Shown piece by piece: positions 23,395-33,439 of a stretch of DNA of 64,000 nt. A model generated the notes under the pieces. That model did not search any database, was not told the origin of the DNA, and saw nothing but the letters and a program-made list of their open reading frames with translations. The position numbers and the translations under genes are program-made. How positions within the stretch are numbered: the stretch's first letter is position 1; each line of letters begins with the position of its first letter. The DNA lies in assembly GCA_007132495.1 (NCBI GenBank), contig SLOL01000124.1:1-64000 (forward strand), in the 5' to 3' direction. This stretch comes from Balneolales bacterium. GTDB taxonomy: Bacteria > Bacteroidota > Rhodothermia > Balneolales > Natronogracilivirgulaceae.

Positions 23395-24627
23395 TTATTC
23401 GTTGCGGACGGCATCGGCCGGTTCAATGGATGCCGCGCGTAAAGCCGGATACCAGCTGGCCATGACACATAACAGCAGGCTGCCCCCCAGAATAAATGCC
23501 ACATCGGGCCACAGCACCTGAACGGGATAAGCGGAGATGATAAAAGATTCGGCTCCGGCAAGTTTAACAAGACCATAGGTGTCCTGCAGCCAGGCAAGCA
23601 ACAGTCCGAGCGATCCTCCAAGGATACATCCGGTAAGACCGATATACCAGCCCTGTCTTAGAAAAACGGACATGACATCCTTCTTCCGAAATCCTATGGA
23701 GCGAAGGAGTCCGATATCCCGCTGTTTTTGAATCACGATCATGGTGAGCGAACCGACAATATTTAGTACGGCAACCAGTACAATGATCATGAGAATGAAG
23801 TAAGCTCCCCATTTTTCGAGATTCATGACATCGTAAAGCGGTTTCTGAAGGTCATACCAGGTCTGAATATGGAATTCGTCTCCCAGCTGCTGTTCAAGCC
23901 GGTTTTTAACCTCTTCTGCCCGGTCGTGATCATGCAGGCTGATATCAATACCGGAGAGGTGGTTTCTCTGGTTGAAAAGTCGTTGGGCGGCATTGATATC
24001 GATATAGATCACCGGATCGTCAATAACCTGCTGTAAACTGTAGATTCCCCGTACTTCAAAACGGCTGACTCTCGGACCTGTGAACTGGGTCAGTGCGCGT
24101 TGCATTCCTGCAGAGCTCAGGAGAGAGACTTCATCTCCGATATTAAGGCGAAGACTGTTGCTAACGGGGTTGGAAATCAGGACACCGGGCCGATGATCCC
24201 GAACCTCCAGATCGAGTCCGCCGGCAGCCAAAAGTGCATCAAGGTCGGCATATCGGGCGAATCGTTCGGGATCAATTCCTTTAACTACGACCACCTGATC
24301 CCGGTTGCCACCATGGGCCACGAGGACCTTGCCTTCGATATATGGGGATTGAATCGCAATTTCCGGGGTTTCTGCAAGGATATTGTCAATATCTTCCCTC
24401 ATTATGAAGGATCGCCCCTCCACCGCTTCTATGCGCAGATCAGGGTCGTTGGAAAGAAGCATTTCCTTGATGACATCAAAAAAACCATTAAAAACCGACA
24501 ATACCACAATCAGCAGGGCTGTTCCAATGGTTACACCGGCGACACTGATCATGGTGAGCGTCGAAACGAGAGAAATGCTCTTCCTGGAAAAAAGATACCT
24601 TCTTGCTATAAGTCGTGTACTGTTCAC
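23395..24627 (-). CDS. lolE: LolC/LolE-like lipoprotein-releasing ABC permease
   Basis: LolC and LolE are the permeases that extract lipoproteins from the inner membrane for delivery to LolA. The 410-residue product has one N-terminal membrane helix (STLTMISVAGVTIGTALLIVVLSVFNG), a large periplasmic MacB-like domain (about 50-270), and three C-terminal helices of the FtsX family (YFILMIIVLVAVLNIVGSL, RSIGFRKKDVMSVFLRQG, and a last pair). The opening RLIARRYLFSRK is typical of LolC/E in this phylum. The ATPase LolD is not next to it. It is divergent from glgB. Confidence 0.87.
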   Translation of the reverse strand: MNSTRLIARRYLFSRKSISLVSTLTMISVAGVTIGTALLIVVLSVFNGFFDVIKEMLLSNDPDLRIEAVEGRSFIMREDIDNILAETPEIAIQSPYIEGKVLVAHGGNRDQVVVVKGIDPERFARYADLDALLAAGGLDLEVRDHRPGVLISNPVSNSLRLNIGDEVSLLSSAGMQRALTQFTGPRVSRFEVRGIYSLQQVIDDPVIYIDINAAQRLFNQRNHLSGIDISLHDHDRAEEVKNRLEQQLGDEFHIQTWYDLQKPLYDVMNLEKWGAYFILMIIVLVAVLNIVGSLTMIVIQKQRDIGLLRSIGFRKKDVMSVFLRQGWYIGLTGCILGGSLGLLLAWLQDTYGLVKLAGAESFIISAYPVQVLWPDVAFILGGSLLLCVMASWYPALRAASIEPADAVRNE

Positions 24628-24770
24628 CCGTAAAAAAATTTAACCTGCATGAATATCTGCACTATGGAAAAAATCAAAACCGGCCATCCGATGATATGGT
24701 AATATTTTTGTGTAATTCTTTGTATTTTATCCGTCAAACTTTCAAATCCTCCCGTGAAATTACAACACCC

Positions 24771-26972
24771 GTGAATACGATTTTTCTGGATCACGAACAT
24801 ATCACAGCGTTGGAACAAGCCGTTCATTCCGACCCATTCTCCGTCCTTGGACCCCACACAGCAGGAAAAGGCAAGAAAAAAGGGGTAGTCATCCGTACTC
24901 TGCAACCTAACGCAGAGAGTGTAAAAATATGGTATGATAATGGAACATCCTATGAAGAGATGAACCGGATCAGCGAAAACGGGGTGTTTGAGTGGATGCT
25001 TGAGGGGCGAGCCGAGCTCCCCTCTTATTACTATGAGATTTTTCCGCATGAGGGGGAAAGTTATACTGTGGTGGATCCCTACGCCTTCGGACCAACCCTG
25101 AGTGATTACGATCTGCAGCTTTGGGGGGAAGGAACATCCCGGCGGGCCTATGAGTTTATGGGCGCACACGCCATCAAGATCGGGGATCATCCCGGAACCC
25201 GGTTTGTGGTTACGGCGCCCAATGCCCTGCGGGTCAGTGTTGTCGGAACATTCAATGACTGGGACGGCCGGCGCCATCCAATGCGGAAATACCATGATCA
25301 GGGCCTTTGGGAGCTCTTCATTCCGGGTATTACGGAAGGAGAGACCTATAAGTACGAAATTGCTGTTGAGGGGTTCGAAATGCCGCTTCTCAAGGCAGAC
25401 CCCTTTGCATTTTGCTCCGAGCTCCGACCCAGAAACGCCTCCGTTGTCAAGGATATCAACTCCTATGAGTGGAAAGACAATGAATGGATGAAAAAACGGA
25501 CCAAGCGATTTGAATCCCCGGTTTCCATCTACGAGGTGCATCTCGGATCCTGGAAAAAAAACGATTTATCTCCGAACGGATTTATGAACTACCGGGAATT
25601 GGCGGATGAACTGGTGGTCTATGTCAAGGAGATGGGATATACGCATATCGAGCTGCTGCCTCTTGCAGAGCATCCTTATGATCCATCCTGGGGATATCAG
25701 ATTACCGGATATTACGCACCGACATCCCGCTTTGGAGCGCCGGAGGATTTTATGTATTTCGTAGATAGTTGTCACCAGGCCGGTATCGGAGTGATCATGG
25801 ACTGGGTGCCCGCCCATTTTGCCAAAGACGAACACGGGTTGCGCCGGTTTGATGGCACGGCACTATACGAACATGAAGATCCCCGTCAGGGAGAGCATCG
25901 GGAATGGGGAACCCATATCTTCAATTACGGACGTTCAGAAGTGCAGAATTTTCTCATATCCAATGCGGTCTACTGGTGCGACATATTTCATATTGACGGT
26001 TTACGCGTTGATGCAGTGGCCTCCATGCTTTATCTGGACTATGACAGGGAGGATGATAAATGGGTTCCAAACAAGTACGGAGGCCGTGAGAATATTGAGG
26101 CCATAGACTTTTTGAAGAAGTTCAACGAAGTATTGAACGAAGAGTTTGACGGAGTCGTAACCATGGCCGAAGAGTCCACATCCTGGCCGATGGTATCCCG
26201 CCCGACCTATATTGGCGGACTCGGGTTTGACTACAAGTGGAATATGGGCTGGATGAATGATACGCTCAAATATTTGGCTATCGATCCGATATTCCGGAAG
26301 TATCATCATAACCAGCTCACGTTCTCCATGATTTACGCCTTTACGGAAAATTTTCTCCTGCCGCTGTCGCACGATGAAGTGGTACACATGAAACGTTCCA
26401 TGATTTCCAAGATGCCGGGTGACGACTGGCAAAAGTTCGCAAATCTCAGATTGCTATATACCTACATGTATGCTCATCCGGGAAAAAAACTGCTTTTCAT
26501 GGGTTCCGATATTGCGCAATGGTCCGAGTGGAACAGTGAAAAGCAGATTGAGTGGGAAGTGCTGGATTATGAGCACCATCAGGGGATTCAGACGCTTGTA
26601 AAGGACCTGAATGCACTGTACCGGGAGCAAAAGCCGCTTCACCAGATAGATTTTGAATGGAGCGGTTTCCAGTGGGTCGATTTTACCGATGCCGATAGTG
26701 GAATAATTGCTTTTATCAGACGGGGAAAAAACGACTATGACAATATTGTCTGTATTTTCAACTTTACACCGCAAGTACATTATGATTATGTTATCGGTGC
26801 GCCGAGAGAGGGAAGATACCGCATTATTTTCAACAGTGATTCCGCGTATTACGGAGGTAGTAATTTTGGCAACAGCGATCTTGTTGCCGAAAAAGGAGAG
26901 TGGCAAAACCAACCGGCCAGTGTAAAGATCAATATCCCTCCACTCGCAGGAATCATCATCAAATCATTGTAA
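24771..26972 (+). CDS. glgB: 1,4-alpha-glucan branching enzyme
   Basis: GlgB makes the alpha-1,6 branches of glycogen. From the GTG at 24771 the protein is 733 residues, the usual size, and begins at the conserved opening (HITALEQAVHSDPFSVLGPH). An N-terminal domain and a CBM48 (VVTAPNALRVSVVGTFNDWDG) precede the GH13 barrel. Catalytic residues are visible in GLRVDAVASM (Asp near 413), MAEESTSWP (Glu near 466) and LPLSHDEVVHMK (Asp near 534). The open frame reaches back to 24615 but would then overlap the divergent lolE start, so I use 24771. malQ follows 14 bp after. Confidence 0.95.
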   Translation: MNTIFLDHEHITALEQAVHSDPFSVLGPHTAGKGKKKGVVIRTLQPNAESVKIWYDNGTSYEEMNRISENGVFEWMLEGRAELPSYYYEIFPHEGESYTVVDPYAFGPTLSDYDLQLWGEGTSRRAYEFMGAHAIKIGDHPGTRFVVTAPNALRVSVVGTFNDWDGRRHPMRKYHDQGLWELFIPGITEGETYKYEIAVEGFEMPLLKADPFAFCSELRPRNASVVKDINSYEWKDNEWMKKRTKRFESPVSIYEVHLGSWKKNDLSPNGFMNYRELADELVVYVKEMGYTHIELLPLAEHPYDPSWGYQITGYYAPTSRFGAPEDFMYFVDSCHQAGIGVIMDWVPAHFAKDEHGLRRFDGTALYEHEDPRQGEHREWGTHIFNYGRSEVQNFLISNAVYWCDIFHIDGLRVDAVASMLYLDYDREDDKWVPNKYGGRENIEAIDFLKKFNEVLNEEFDGVVTMAEESTSWPMVSRPTYIGGLGFDYKWNMGWMNDTLKYLAIDPIFRKYHHNQLTFSMIYAFTENFLLPLSHDEVVHMKRSMISKMPGDDWQKFANLRLLYTYMYAHPGKKLLFMGSDIAQWSEWNSEKQIEWEVLDYEHHQGIQTLVKDLNALYREQKPLHQIDFEWSGFQWVDFTDADSGIIAFIRRGKNDYDNIVCIFNFTPQVHYDYVIGAPREGRYRIIFNSDSAYYGGSNFGNSDLVAEKGEWQNQPASVKINIPPLAGIIIKSL

Positions 26973-26986
26973 CAAGACCGGAATAT

Positions 26987-28531
26987 ATGAACTTTGCACG
27001 ATCTTGCGGTACGCTTGTGCATCCCACCTCTTTTCCTTCAGATTTTGCCATTGGAGACCTGGGTGAGCGGGCATACCGGTTCATCGACTATCTTGAACAT
27101 ACTCACCAGGGAATATGGCAAATTCTGCCCCTGGGTCCGACCGGGTTCGGTAACTCCCCGTATGCCAGCTACTCGGCGTTTGCCGGAAATCCCTATTTGA
27201 TCAGTCCGGATATACTCAAGGACAAGGGGTTGCTCAGTGAAAAAGAAATAGCGCCATTGCGGGTACCCCAAAGCGACAAGGTGGATTACGAGCACGCCTA
27301 CAGCATCAAGGATCAGCTTTTGGCCAAAGCCTGCCGCCGTTTCTACGAACGAAATGATGCTGATGAACAAAAACGTTTTGATGCATTCAAAAAGGAGAAC
27401 GACCGGTGGCTGGATGACTATGTGCACTTCATGGCATGCCTGATTGCCAATGACCGTAAACCGTGGAATCAATGGGACGAAGGATTGGCAAAGCGTGATC
27501 CGGAGGTCCTCGCCTCCAGCAGGAAGCGCATGAACCCGGATATTGAAAAGCAGTATTGGGTGCAATTTGAGTTCTTTAACCAATGGATGAACCTTAGGGA
27601 ATATGCCAATTCCAAGGGTATCAACATTATCGGGGATATTCCCATTTTTGTGGATCATAACAGTTCAGATGTCTGGGCCAACAAGCGTTACTTCGATGTA
27701 GACGAGACAGGGAACCGATTGCTGGTCTCCGGGGTGCCTCCCGACTATTTCAGTGAAACCGGTCAGCTGTGGGGAAATCCGTTATACCGTTGGAAAGAGC
27801 TTGAAAAAGATGGCTATCAATGGTGGATCGACCGGTTTGATCAGATGTTTAAAATGTATGATGCCATCAGGGTGGACCACTTCCGCGGGTTTGATGCCTA
27901 TTGGGAGGTCAAGGCGGATGCCGATACGGCTCAAAACGGCCGTTGGGTAAAAGGTCCCGGAGCAAAGTTGTTTCACGCCATAGAGAAGAAGATGGGCAAG
28001 CTCCCCATCATAGCCGAAGACCTGGGGGTAATTACCCAGAGTGTGGTCGACTTGAGGGACCGGTTTAATTTTCCGGGCATGAAGGTTCTGCAATTTGCAT
28101 TTGACGATCCGGGAAACGGTTTTCTCCCACACAACTACTCCAACACTAATTGCATCGTTTACTCCGGTACACATGATAACGACACCACGATCGGATGGTA
28201 TGAGAAAGCGCCGGAGCAAGAACGGAATTTTTTACGGGAATACACTCAGACTGATGGTTCCGAGGTGAGCTGGCAATTGATTCGAGCCGGAATGTTGTCG
28301 GTTGCCGGTCAGGCTATCTTTCCGTTACAGGATTTTATGGAGCTTGACGGGAAGCACCGAATGAACTTTCCCGGTACAACAGAAAACAACTGGATGTGGC
28401 GATATACGGATGATATGTTGAACAAAGTGGACACCGGGCGCATTCGTCATCTGATTGGAATCAGCAATCGTAATGTCAAAGATGCCAGAGGAGATTCCAA
28501 TATTCAGGATGTTGACACGGAAGAATTCTGA
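26987..28531 (+). CDS. malQ: 4-alpha-glucanotransferase (amylomaltase)
   Basis: MalQ transfers maltosyl and longer units between alpha-1,4-glucans. From the ATG at 26987 it is 514 residues, the usual length for the short GH77 form. LPLGPTGFGNSPYASYSAFAGNPYLIS near 40-66 is diagnostic. The catalytic sites are IRVDHFRGFDAYWE (Asp near 296) and IIAEDLGVIT (Glu near 343), with YSGTHDNDTTIGW after them. A longer frame back to 26900 overlaps glgB and adds nothing conserved. With glgB and glgP it forms a glycogen remodelling set. No glgC or complete glgA is in the window. Confidence 0.96.
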   Translation: MNFARSCGTLVHPTSFPSDFAIGDLGERAYRFIDYLEHTHQGIWQILPLGPTGFGNSPYASYSAFAGNPYLISPDILKDKGLLSEKEIAPLRVPQSDKVDYEHAYSIKDQLLAKACRRFYERNDADEQKRFDAFKKENDRWLDDYVHFMACLIANDRKPWNQWDEGLAKRDPEVLASSRKRMNPDIEKQYWVQFEFFNQWMNLREYANSKGINIIGDIPIFVDHNSSDVWANKRYFDVDETGNRLLVSGVPPDYFSETGQLWGNPLYRWKELEKDGYQWWIDRFDQMFKMYDAIRVDHFRGFDAYWEVKADADTAQNGRWVKGPGAKLFHAIEKKMGKLPIIAEDLGVITQSVVDLRDRFNFPGMKVLQFAFDDPGNGFLPHNYSNTNCIVYSGTHDNDTTIGWYEKAPEQERNFLREYTQTDGSEVSWQLIRAGMLSVAGQAIFPLQDFMELDGKHRMNFPGTTENNWMWRYTDDMLNKVDTGRIRHLIGISNRNVKDARGDSNIQDVDTEEF

Positions 28532-28745: not shown

Positions 28746-29543
28746 ATGAAAATCCTATACGCTGCTGCTGAAATTTCACCTTTTGCGAGGATGACGCATA
28801 CGGCCGATCTCCTTCGCTTTCTGCCGGCCTCTTTACAGGACAAGGGCTTTGAAATACGATTGTTGTTACCCAAATACGGATCGATCAACGATCGTAGAAA
28901 CAGGCTCCATGAGGTGATTCGGCTTGCCGGGATAAAGGTCAGGGTCGGGGACAGCGATGAAAGCATGCGCATCAAGGTTGCCAGCATCCCCAACGCAAAG
29001 CTGCAGGTCTATTTCCTGGACAATGACACCTTCTTCAAGAGAAAAGGTTTGTTCACCGATCCCAAAACATCGAAGTTTTTCCCCGATAATGACCGGCGCC
29101 TTGTATTTTATAATAAGGGGGTTTTGGAAACCGTTAGAAAACTTGGTTGGAAGCCTGATGTAATTCATTGTCATGACTGGGCGTCAGGATTTATACCGGT
29201 ATTTTTAAAGTCGATTTATAAAAATGACGACAATTTTTCGAAGACGAGGGTTGTTTTCAATGTTCACAGTGCAACCAACCACGGGATTTTTGATCCGGAT
29301 ATTCTGGATATAATGGCCTTACCTGAGGATTTTGACAGAGAATCAGTGATTTTCGAAGACGGGAAAGTTGATTTTCTGCGGGCAGGATTGAAATATGCCG
29401 ATCATGTGGTAACCGGAAACGAACTCGGTTCTGAACTCAATGACACTTTTGAGGAACTGGGTGTGAAACCGGATGTGATCCAGGGCTCTCCACAGGATGT
29501 CTCCAGCAAATTTGCCGATTACTATAATAAGATCACGGAATAA
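28746..29543 (+). CDS. Short starch-synthase-like (GT5 N-terminal domain) protein
   Basis: The 265 residues align in outline with only the first Rossmann domain of glycogen/starch synthase (GT5). The start MKILYAAAEISPFA, the block DNDTFFKRKGLF, DVIHCHDWASGFIPV and a later HSATNHG-DPDI region are recognisable. The C-terminal GT domain is absent. The ADP-glucose loop, normally K-T/V-G-G-L, here reads RMTHTADLL, so the key lysine and glycines are lost. It is therefore unlikely to make glycogen. From memory, Bacteroidota often carry such a short protein beside a DUF4270 lipoprotein gene, as here (19 bp downstream). The role is unknown. Confidence 0.78.
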   Translation: MKILYAAAEISPFARMTHTADLLRFLPASLQDKGFEIRLLLPKYGSINDRRNRLHEVIRLAGIKVRVGDSDESMRIKVASIPNAKLQVYFLDNDTFFKRKGLFTDPKTSKFFPDNDRRLVFYNKGVLETVRKLGWKPDVIHCHDWASGFIPVFLKSIYKNDDNFSKTRVVFNVHSATNHGIFDPDILDIMALPEDFDRESVIFEDGKVDFLRAGLKYADHVVTGNELGSELNDTFEELGVKPDVIQGSPQDVSSKFADYYNKITE

Positions 29544-29561
29544 CTACAGGTTTTAATTTCT

Positions 29562-30800
29562 ATGCAAAAGTTTGACGGCATCTTCACCCGTCTGACATTA
29601 CCCATCATTTTGCTGTTAACGGTGTACGGAATATCGTCATGTGATGACAGCGCCGTGGTCGGCAGCAGAGTTTCACCGGACGATGTTACGGTGAGTGCAG
29701 ATACGGTTTTACTTGATGATTTGTCAGTAGTGAGCACCCCTTCTTTCAGTGGTAATGCCAATTATTTTACAGCAGGAGAGGTTGACGATCCGCTGTTCGG
29801 TAATTTCAAGGTCACCGCATTAGTCAGACCTTCGATAACCCGCTCCGCCGAAAACGATTCTCTGGTGGATAATGCCCCCATGGTTATGGCTTTGAATGTA
29901 GATCATATCTATGGCCGGGACGGTCTTTCCGCCGAATATCATGTTGTTGAAGTGGGACGGCGCTGGCGCACCAGTTCATGGCGATATGATTCTATACCGG
30001 ACTTAACCAGCAATATTGTTGGTAATTTTTCGGTAGATGAACCGGATTCGATAACCGTAACCCTTGACGAAGGGTGGACACGCAAATATCGGGATATCTT
30101 GTTGAATGAGTCAGCGGCAGAACGGGACTCGCTGTTTCAGGAGGAACTGCCGGGACTGGCCATCGTTCCGGCCTCCTCGGACGAACAAATGTTTTCAGTG
30201 GAAGGGTCACGCGCATATTTTATTTTTATTGAAGAGCGAGTCGCCGATGAAAACGGTGAAGAGGAAGAGGAAGAAGAAGAAGAGTTTCAACACCATGTAA
30301 AAGGGTTGAACAGCTGGGCGGTCAGCCTGGATTCGGATCTTCACAGTGATGAATCGTTCGAAACAGGAATGGTGGTCAAAAATACGATGAGAAGGATGAT
30401 CGAGATGGATATCCCGTTCACAGAAGATTTTTTGGGTACGAACAATTTTTCCAGGGTCGAACTGGTTCTATATGAAGAACCGCAATCAAGCCCGCCTGCC
30501 GGGTTTCTCAGGCCGCGATCGGAAACCATGAGAATCTTTCATCTGGAACCGGATCAGTTGAATTACGCTGTAAGCGGAGATCCCCGCTTTCAGTCGAATC
30601 AGCGGGAAGAAGATGGATCTTTTCGCTTCAATCTCACAAATCTGGCCAATGAACAAATGCATGGGTCATTGACGAATCAAAAGCTGTATGCCGTAATCGG
30701 GTTCAATGACGGCAGGATACTACCGTCTTTGATCAACGGTCAGGGTAACTCGGGAAGGCAGCCCAAATTACTCATTACAGGTATCTCTAAAGAGCAGTAA
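29562..30800 (+). CDS. DUF4270-like lipoprotein
   Basis: The 412-residue product starts with a lipoprotein signal (LTLPIILLLTVYGISSC, lipid-modified Cys27). After that it is a secreted, mostly beta protein with the patterns seen in the DUF4270 family (VGSRVSPDDVTV..., AGEVDDPLFGNFKV near 68-81, and a late LTNLANEQMHGSLTNQKLYAVIGF). A poly-Glu run near 232-242 is encoded by a GAA/GAG microsatellite. The position after the short starch-synthase-like gene supports the family call. No function is established. It is followed closely by a barrel gene and a TPR gene, suggesting an outer-membrane assembly. Confidence 0.62.
   Translation: MQKFDGIFTRLTLPIILLLTVYGISSCDDSAVVGSRVSPDDVTVSADTVLLDDLSVVSTPSFSGNANYFTAGEVDDPLFGNFKVTALVRPSITRSAENDSLVDNAPMVMALNVDHIYGRDGLSAEYHVVEVGRRWRTSSWRYDSIPDLTSNIVGNFSVDEPDSITVTLDEGWTRKYRDILLNESAAERDSLFQEELPGLAIVPASSDEQMFSVEGSRAYFIFIEERVADENGEEEEEEEEEFQHHVKGLNSWAVSLDSDLHSDESFETGMVVKNTMRRMIEMDIPFTEDFLGTNNFSRVELVLYEEPQSSPPAGFLRPRSETMRIFHLEPDQLNYAVSGDPRFQSNQREEDGSFRFNLTNLANEQMHGSLTNQKLYAVIGFNDGRILPSLINGQGNSGRQPKLLITGISKEQ
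30255..30285 (+). repeat. GAA/GAG microsatellite encoding a poly-Glu run
   Basis: A run of GAA and GAG codons inside the DUF4270-like gene encodes about ten consecutive glutamates. Tracts of this type can change length by slippage in steps of three bases, which alters the loop but not the frame. Confidence 0.6.
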
Positions 30801-30809
30801 TTAAATTTT

Positions 30810-32105
30810 ATGGTACGATTTTACACCGCAATATCAGTTTCTCTCTTGCTTCTGGCGGGAATCGGTCAGCAGGCGGATGCCAATGATATCTGGAGTGGGG
30901 GATCGCCCTATGCGCACTTCGGACTGGGGCTGCCTCATGACTTCAACGCCACGTACGCCGATGGCATGGGGTTATCGGGGGTGGCGATGCATGACAATCG
31001 CATTCCCAGTGTCGCCAACCCGGCAGCCTGGTCGCGGGCCTATTTTTCCAACATCAGCGGCGCATTTGAAATCAACAGTTATGATGCCCGGTTCGGCGAG
31101 GGTCAGAACAGTACCACCCGTTTTCAGACCGGACCGTTTCAGATGGTGCTGCCGGTAAGCAGGGAACGTATCGGGGTATCGTTATCCTTCACACCGCTCA
31201 CTTCGTCACGTTACGCAACGAATAATGAATATGTGTTATCCGAAAGCCAGAATAACACCGGCGAGGAAATGAGGTACGGATTGGAAAACCGGGGTGATGG
31301 AGGGATTAACAGAATAGAACTGGGAGTGGGGATCCGATTGACCAATGCCTTGTCGGTTGGATATGCTCCATCGCTATTACTGGGTTCGGTCAACAGAAAC
31401 CAGAATGTGTTTTTTGATGATCTGGACTACCGGCCGGTCTACCTGACAGAAACTACACATCATTACGGCTTCGGCAACCGGTTTGGCCTTTATTATTCCA
31501 GCCAGGGCCTGTTCCGGTCCCGTGACAGGGCAACCTTCGGGGCTACCGTCTCTCTTCCGGTCAACCTGACATCAGAGCGGAGTCTGGAATCGCGTATCAA
31601 TTCAAGGGATGTGACCATCCGGCCGACGTCTTACTACGGTGACGGCCAGGCAACATTTCCACTTGAAGCGGGCGCAGGTTTTTCCTATAATTTCAATCCG
31701 TACTTATTGGTAGGTGCAGACGTGCTTTTTCAAAACTGGAGTGAGTATACCAATTTTGAGGGGCATTCCGAAGTGTTTTTGAAAGATCGCATGAAAGTCG
31801 GACTGGGAACCCAGTATTTGGCTGCCCGCAGAGGGGGAGCCACCATTTTCTCGCGATTTATTTATAGAATGGGTGTATCTTACGATACCGGCAGTTTACA
31901 ACTGGACGGAAACGATATTGAAACCCTGACACTGCATGCCGGTTTTGGAATACCTTCTTCCGGAACGAATTCATCCATAGATATCAATGCCGAATATGGA
32001 TTTCGCGGAACCGAAGCATCCGGTCTGATATCCGAAAGGATATTTGCCGTCACTGTTTCATTCAATTTATCTGAAATTATGTTCTTCCAACGTCGTCTGC
32101 AATAA
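30810..32105 (+). CDS. Outer-membrane beta-barrel protein (FadL/PorV-like), unknown function
   Basis: A signal peptide (SLLLLAGIGQQADAN region) leads into about 405 residues of amphipathic strands. The early block GLGLPHDFNATYADGMGLSG and SVANPAAWS is like the SxxNPA(A/G)L opening of FadL and PorV/UPF0164-type barrels, and strand patterns (GVGIRLTNALSVGYAPSLLLG, YNFNPYLLVGADVLFQNW) continue to the C-terminus. It is 10 bp behind the DUF4270-like gene and 30 bp ahead of a TPR gene, so the three are likely one transcript. The cargo or partner is unknown. Confidence 0.72.
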   Translation: MVRFYTAISVSLLLLAGIGQQADANDIWSGGSPYAHFGLGLPHDFNATYADGMGLSGVAMHDNRIPSVANPAAWSRAYFSNISGAFEINSYDARFGEGQNSTTRFQTGPFQMVLPVSRERIGVSLSFTPLTSSRYATNNEYVLSESQNNTGEEMRYGLENRGDGGINRIELGVGIRLTNALSVGYAPSLLLGSVNRNQNVFFDDLDYRPVYLTETTHHYGFGNRFGLYYSSQGLFRSRDRATFGATVSLPVNLTSERSLESRINSRDVTIRPTSYYGDGQATFPLEAGAGFSYNFNPYLLVGADVLFQNWSEYTNFEGHSEVFLKDRMKVGLGTQYLAARRGGATIFSRFIYRMGVSYDTGSLQLDGNDIETLTLHAGFGIPSSGTNSSIDINAEYGFRGTEASGLISERIFAVTVSFNLSEIMFFQRRLQ

Positions 32106-32134: not shown

Positions 32135-33439
32135 ATGGTTAGAATAGCTCTGTTTTCAATCGCCCTCCTTATTGGGGCCGGGTCCATAAGTGCCCAGCCG
32201 TTTGGCTATACACCGCTTCAGGTGCAATCCCTGTTTTCCGAAGACTACCGGAACGAACAGTATGAACAAGCACTAATTTATGGACGCTGGCTGATTGATG
32301 CGCATCCCAAAGAGATGGAGGATTATCCCGGTAATTATCGGGGAGAACGGAATTTCCGGAGAATGATTGATATTTATGAATATATGGCCCAGCAGCAGAG
32401 TGATCCGGCTCTGAGAGAGGCGTATATCGATTCCTCGCTTCAGATGTACGACCGGATTTTTGCGCTTTTCAATGAGGATGAAATAGATCTTTATCGCTGG
32501 TATTTTAACCGTGGGCGGTTTTTACAGGAGCATTCCGAGTTAGTTGACGGCGGATATCAACAAGCTCTTGAAGATTATGAAACCATATTTCGTATGAATC
32601 CGGAGCGCGCGACACAATCGGGCAACGGATACTATGTAAGGCTTCTGGTGCAGAACTATTCGAGGCAGAATGACCGGGATGCAGTCTTTTCAATTATTAA
32701 TGAAGCCGAACCGTATGCCGATGAACAACTCCTAGATTTCTTTTCACAAACACGGAATGAGCTGATTACCGATCCGGAAGAGCGAATTGAATTGCTTACT
32801 GAGGATCTGGAAGAGGATCCGGAAAACGTGGAGCTGATGATGGAGATCTATGATCTTTATCAGGCTGTTGGTGACAGGGAAAAGGCCGGGGAAATGGCCG
32901 TCCGCATGTACGAGGCGGACCCGACTCCTGAAAATATCATGCGACTTGCCGATATCGCGGAGAATGATGGCAACTATCAGGAAGCCAATCAATATCTGAG
33001 TGAAGCACATGACAACCTGGAGGGCAGAGAACGGGCTGAAGCCTCTTTGCGTATTGCGGATAATCATTTGAATCTCCGTAACTTACAGCAAGCAAGACAG
33101 TATGCCCAACGTGCGGCACGTGAAGATCCAAGTTGGGGAGAACCGCATATTACCATTGCCCAAATTTATGGACAGGCGGTGTCCCGTTGTGCCGGCAGTG
33201 AAATGACCCGCATCGATAAAGCCGTTTACTGGCTGGTTCTGGATTATCTGGACGAAGCGGTTGAACGGAATGGCGGCACTTCCAGCACCGTGAATAGGTT
33301 GTACAGGACATATGAGCCTGTGGCACCAAATGCCGAAGAAAAGTTTTATCAAAGCTGGAATACCGGCGAAACCATTCGTATTAATGGTTCTCTCAAAGAA
33401 TGCTATTCCTGGATTGACGAAGAAACAACCATTCGTTAA
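32135..33439 (+). CDS. Secreted tetratricopeptide-repeat protein
   Basis: The 434-residue product has a signal peptide (IALFSIALLIGAGSISAQ) and then helical repeats. Clear TPR-like units include YEQALIYGRWLIDAHP, AEMAVRMYEADPTPENIMRLADIAENDGNYQEANQYLSEAH and LRIADNHLNLRNLQQARQYAQRAAREDPSWGEPH (about residues 255-345). The C-terminal tail contains two cysteines (AVSRCAGSE and SLKECYSWIDEETTIR), a pattern I associate with periplasmic TPR proteins of this phylum. It probably acts as a periplasmic scaffold with the lipoprotein and barrel encoded just upstream. A short terminator follows its stop. Confidence 0.75.
   Translation: MVRIALFSIALLIGAGSISAQPFGYTPLQVQSLFSEDYRNEQYEQALIYGRWLIDAHPKEMEDYPGNYRGERNFRRMIDIYEYMAQQQSDPALREAYIDSSLQMYDRIFALFNEDEIDLYRWYFNRGRFLQEHSELVDGGYQQALEDYETIFRMNPERATQSGNGYYVRLLVQNYSRQNDRDAVFSIINEAEPYADEQLLDFFSQTRNELITDPEERIELLTEDLEEDPENVELMMEIYDLYQAVGDREKAGEMAVRMYEADPTPENIMRLADIAENDGNYQEANQYLSEAHDNLEGRERAEASLRIADNHLNLRNLQQARQYAQRAAREDPSWGEPHITIAQIYGQAVSRCAGSEMTRIDKAVYWLVLDYLDEAVERNGGTSSTVNRLYRTYEPVAPNAEEKFYQSWNTGETIRINGSLKECYSWIDEETTIR

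Follow-up and report, generated by a model that had tools for sequence, protein, structure and literature searches.

The gene found at positions 28746-29543 (+) of the window, i.e. of the 64,000-nucleotide stretch of Balneolales DNA that was analysed, encodes the N-terminal domain of a glycogen synthase of family GT5 in which the catalytic parts are lost; it evolves slowly and, as in most of the Bacteroidota sampled, it lies directly in front of bamH, a gene for outer-membrane assembly. These three features point to a non-enzymatic job. We conclude that the protein, called short GT5 below, is a selected pseudoenzyme and probably a cytoplasmic protein with a binding or regulatory role.

The gene is intact, as stated in a preliminary description of this DNA: the ORF encodes 265 aa with zero internal stops and its product starts with MKILYAAAE, without apparent signal peptide. 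It was matched by the Pfam model Glyco_transf_5 (PF08323; 194 bits for a cut-off of 22.7, E = 4e-57) along positions 1-215 of the 239 in the profile. The C-terminal GT domain was absent from the 265-aa protein in the Pfam search, the ORF stopping after the N-domain, and the product is indeed, as described, a GT5 N-terminal domain alone. PRK14098 was the top NCBIfam family, with scores far below the family cut-offs (227 bits for 754 with PRK14098, 160 for 328 with TIGR02095). GlgA (GT5; PRK14098/TIGR02095) is thus the known system that short GT5 resembles, in its N-terminal Rossmann domain, its fold and its best family match, but short GT5 differs from it by the missing C-terminal domain, the lost donor loop and the low scores. 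The alignments place at 28785-28808 (+) a degenerate donor-binding loop, A14-R-M-T-H-T-A-D21, where canonical enzymes have A-K-x-G-G-L-A-D: K15 is replaced by R and G17-G18 by T-H, so that R-M-T-H-T stands for K-x-G-G-L and the reported replacement of the ADP-glucose loop by RMTHTADLL is borne out. H143-D144-W145 and H174 are retained in the window's copy, for which some binding of sugar is therefore conceivable. The second GT5 protein of the host genome is a full-length GlgA, encoded on another contig (C97) by a 484-aa frame in which K-A-G-G, R..EKG and E-P-C-G are all present; the short gene is therefore not the glycogen synthase of the organism.

A few glycogen-related genes were seen around these two loci. 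The intact glgA is directly followed by a glgC-like gene, and a further glycosyltransferase frame (G000:C97:14716-15096; 383 aa, PF00534) was seen some 4 kb away from it. In the window, glgB and malQ adjoin the short GT5 gene upstream (24615-28531); this linkage is local and was not used, since in family f3, which belongs to the same order, the two genes upstream differ in size.

Downstream, short GT5 is followed by a tight run of genes on the same strand, in which the preliminary description had correctly placed a lipoprotein, a barrel and a TPR gene: bamH (29562-30800, +) follows after 18 bp, bamG (30810-32105, +) after another 9 bp, and a TPR protein gene (32135-33439, +; Pfam TPR_19, 7.3e-09), which ends the run, after 29 bp. 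The lipoprotein has an ISSC lipobox whose cysteine, residue 27, is invariant and is followed by DD. Its designation as DUF4270-like holds, with one correction. Pfam's own DUF4270 model (PF14092) missed it, whether searched in its own genome or on the protein, and its membership comes from an HMM seeded with 19 Bacteroidia proteins positive for Pfam DUF4270, which retrieved it as a non-seed on the first pass (E = 9e-12 among 534 frames), and from its fold: the only PDB matches of its model (pLDDT 73.8) under E 0.001 were the three solved BamH chains, from P. gingivalis (1.9e-14), F. johnsoniae (5.3e-13) and B. thetaiotaomicron (9.5e-12). The next gene encodes the FadL-type barrel BamG (NCBIfam NF053685, 250.5 bits for a cut-off of 250; solved BamG 9hiv_F, E = 9.1e-24). 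In the seven other loci of the window's order, too, bamG is followed by a relative of the TPR protein. The two genes that follow short GT5 are thus homologous to those of BamG and BamH, which in the passages concerned are described in 2025 as subunits of the Bacteroidota BAM complex (PMC12611786, PMC12578637); according to the same passages, neither bamG nor bamH can be deleted in F. johnsoniae, where depletion wrecks the outer membrane, and BamH is dispensable in B. thetaiotaomicron.

To describe the distribution of the pair, a panel of 80 genomes (52 family codes, one to several genomes per family) was hand-picked from 296 plus G003, 15 further members of families already present being left out; one genome (G195) had no GT5 match, hence 79 loci were counted. 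The bamH gene was directly 3' of the GT5 gene in 71 of these 79 loci (70 by HMM, and G205 by Pfam coordinates), a count obtained with a BamH HMM built iteratively on the same frames but whose first pass had already found 34 non-seed loci; in 70 of the 79 genomes this HMM gave exactly one match, on the same strand and just downstream. In a second, separate collection of named loci, bamH came after GT5 in 72 out of 80, and one of the eight others (L181) ends 79 bases past the GT5 gene. The linkage is real: the same pairing, which the preliminary description mentioned for other Bacteroidota, is there in both collections, and a lack of conserved linkage, the outcome which that description had set against itself, was given by neither. 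The GT5-bamH gene order is old, being common to most of the phylum sampled, and it is tighter than the linkage to bamG, which is within 5 kb of GT5 in 45 of 77 genomes.

Eight panel loci were unlinked. The two f25 genomes had no BamG match at all, and in G125 the BamG match was at the end of another contig. In G256 and in four genomes of Bacteroidia (G041, G046, G263 and G274; the class of panel genomes was taken from similarity to the named loci and from tree position) the linkage is broken but both genes are still present, the DUF4270 genes of the latter four being located elsewhere in the genome. Synteny alone is not a proof of functional coupling. The surroundings of the pair also vary: in Bacteroidia glmS is often next (a GlmS-motif frame was found in 59 of the 80 named loci) and, in the examples checked, panC and panD are upstream on the opposite strand, while many full-length loci have, between GT5 and bamH, a phosphatase resembling GmhB, which scored below the equivalog cut-offs and above the broad HAD-IIIA ones. 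Instances of such a HAD phosphatase between a full-length synthase and bamH are L080:7971-8573 and L123:7978-8550; in L080, rpiB comes after bamG.

The panel copies fall into two size classes, 50 short (247-288 aa) and 29 full-length (488-507 aa). The K-x-G-G motif was found in no short form, whether among the 50 of the panel or the 80 of the named loci, but in 23 of the 29 full-length linked copies and in all 21 canonical GlgA sampled (20 second matches chosen by hand, and the copy of the window's own genome); the expectation which was to count against the preliminary reading, i.e. an intact K-x-G-G-L in most homologues, is thus contradicted by the short ones. Most of the 23 full-length linked copies with K-x-G-G keep every active-site motif checked. 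In the six without it (families f19, f25, f30 and f40), R..KG and E.CG, two motifs found in full-length copies only, are also altered to varying degree. The loss of the lysine, raised as a possible shared trait, did not prove to be one: K15 is still present in 7 of the 50 short panel forms. It is G17 that is gone nearly everywhere (49/50), most often replaced by S or T (46/50 in the panel, 77/80 among the named short forms).

In a tree built on the N-domain after deletion of the loop columns, canonical GlgA and the locus-linked group are separated (84/95); on this tree the short length requires two changes and K-x-G-G a minimum of five. A single origin of the short form (all short forms held together) was disfavoured, with a p-AU of 0.028 for a group defined by length and a test run after the tree had been seen, the usual caution about long branches applying. 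The simplest account is that an active synthase next to bamH decayed repeatedly and that its C-domain was lost in two separate lineages.

What remains is predicted to fold well. The AlphaFold2 model of short GT5 (pLDDT 90.9) has starch and glycogen synthases as closest structures (6gne_B, Z 31.3 over 253 residues, rmsd 2.2; E. coli glycogen synthase 2qzs, Z 28.6). Residues 1-264 of the model superpose end to end on chain 1-477 of the E. coli glycogen synthase, over 247 residues, which is no more than a suggestion that the C-domain could have been excised from the middle, with the crossover helix kept; in the sequences the signal of this C-terminal helix is weak (at least 0 bits in 22 of 50 real tails versus 44 of 1000 shuffled ones, none reaching 6). 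A helix of the model begins at residue 19, near the substituted G17, and the S or T found at position 17 may perhaps act as its cap.

The remnant is under very strong purifying selection. Among the eight genomes of the window's order its mean pairwise identity is 71.6%, i.e. that of Rho (71.4%), to be compared with 55.6% for canonical GlgA, 39.9% for the TPR protein, 35.2% for BamG and 28.9% for BamH. Its non-synonymous differences amount to 0.06-0.09 per site in three pairs, in which synonymous sites are saturated. The constraint has shifted away from the active site onto a different set of residues. Fourteen positions fixed in both the active linked copies and canonical GlgA are lost in the short forms (K15, G17, G18, D21, V22, Y103, D144, H174, N175, G180, T223, V224, S225 and Y228); by the known anatomy of GlgA, they belong chiefly to the motifs of the catalytic cleft. 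Conversely, L4, R38, G45, R50, H55, R59, L60, Q87 and N115 are kept in the short and active linked forms and are rare in canonical GlgA. Slow evolution, together with drift largely confined to the active site, upholds the earlier proposal of a fold kept without catalysis. In 20 of the 50 short-form genomes (counted by eye) PF08323 matched nothing else above 100 bits, which means that the short form is independent of glycogen synthesis by GT5 enzymes.

As to what the protein does, we lean towards a non-catalytic paralogue, derived from a synthase, that forms part of the bamH(-bamG) locus and serves, likely by binding or regulation, a cytoplasmic step in envelope building. The history is shown by the loci compared. 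At the bamH locus, a full-length synthase in which none of the checked active-site motifs is missing survives in some lineages; elsewhere the copy has lost these motifs and, in two separate lineages, the nucleotide-sugar-binding domain as well, the decayed copy usually staying directly 5' of bamH. Since no signal peptide is apparent, short GT5 would be cytoplasmic and, although presumably made together with BamH, would make no contact with this extracellular protein. It most likely acts on a cytoplasmic step which feeds outer-membrane building, for example the supply of amino-sugar or glycan precursors or the control of an enzyme of that kind. The amino-sugar version is a guess based on the glmS gene of Bacteroidia, and the window is not covered by it: glmS was not among the neighbour genes examined there. 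In a bolder version, which we regard as tentative, short GT5 would be a core regulator of outer-membrane assembly, cytoplasmic and present throughout the phylum; a glycogen-synthase paralogue, it would have come to the bamH-bamG locus when it was an enzyme, have become a pseudoenzyme several times independently, and now couple the status of sugars or envelope precursors to the amount or activity of the BAM machine that contains BamG and BamH.

Other readings were considered. Short GT5 could be a metabolite sensor whose former acceptor cleft still binds a sugar ligand, a glucan or a sugar phosphate. In GT-B enzymes the acceptor side is formed by the N-domain according to a figure legend of PMC11046441, and the window's protein keeps H-D-W and H174; moreover, all 50 short panel forms have H141 and 48 of them have W145. 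However, D144 is changed to G in 32 of the 50, H174 is lost in 38 of the 50 and kept in only 2 of the 80 named forms, and the cleft is precisely the part that drifted, which makes this reading unlikely.

Alg13/Alg14 is a glycosyltransferase in two parts, and by analogy short GT5 might be one half of a split enzyme whose C-terminal domain is made separately. The N-domain is intact and, in the predicted model, folds alone, and in the host genome, which is fragmented, one 209-aa frame is matched by PF00534. Apart from that frame, the search for stand-alone PF00534 domains as candidate partners yielded none in seven closed genomes, where every PF00534 match was in a frame of at least 332 aa; moreover, the N-domain has lost its donor-binding loop. 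We hold such a partnership to be very improbable. The gene could also be a passive relic, retained through ancestral synteny and translational coupling to bamH, with a protein of no importance in itself. Old gene order, common to most of the phylum sampled, and tight spacing would fit, but hardly a protein conserved as well as Rho and with an amino-acid-specific signature, or the persistence of the short form away from bamH (G041, G046, G263 and G274); the chances of this being so are slim indeed. Lastly, a glycogen synthase with full or partial activity, as suggested by the annotation of BT_4307 as a potential glycogen synthase (PMC10797578, in the passage concerned), is already contradicted by a sequence with no nucleotide-sugar domain, no K-x-G-G and no E.CG, the K-X-G-G-L motif being strictly conserved and its Lys15 involved in substrate binding (PMC2576272), and by the separate intact GlgA of the window's genome.

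A conserved GlgA-GT5 fragment in Bacteroidetes is mentioned in one sentence of PMC11046441 and is very likely the same protein family; that passage deals neither with the linkage to bamH nor with an active full-length ancestor at the locus, repeated decay or a reading of function. For B. thetaiotaomicron, a passage of PMC10797578 takes BT_4307, a putative glycogen synthase, as evidence of glycogen storage; BT_4307 is also on the list of a pull-down with a B12 probe, with ratios of 2.61 and 1.05 (PMC8941943). Its tag is consecutive with Bt4306, given as BamH in PMC12578637, as expected of the GT5-bamH pair, the correspondence being by locus tag and not by sequence. No GT5-like subunit is named in the passages concerned of PMC12611786 and PMC12578637, the word 'glycogen' being absent from both main texts, and the main texts of two transposon screens (PMC3547785 and PMC4072883) do not mention glycogen. 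In P. gingivalis a glycogen synthase orthogroup is listed as being under positive selection (PMC10394638), its link to short GT5 being uncertain. We found in the open-licence literature no paper joining the GT5 fragment with BamH or DUF4270.

If our reading is right, an almost universal protein of the Bacteroidota is misnamed glycogen synthase and stands beside newly found, partly essential genes of outer-membrane assembly. There would then be a connection between cytoplasmic metabolism and BAM in a phylum with a surface machinery that matters both in the gut and in the environment, and a clear example of the same enzyme having lost its catalysis again and again at a single locus. In any event, caution is in order when glycogen storage is deduced from annotation, as is done for BT_4307 in the cited passage of PMC10797578.

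Two minor variants deserve mention. In L078 and L095 (G280 and G198) a second, separate lineage of short GT5 was seen, 286-288 aa long and with a partial loop (KTGS and KTSA), which is possibly a younger truncation; there, the short gene is beside a GmhB-like gene, bamH and bamG. In f25 (L086 and L097) the full-length GT5 has a ruined active site, is the sole PF08323 protein and is followed by a GmhB-like gene; as these genomes have no bamG match, the decayed protein can exist without BamG.
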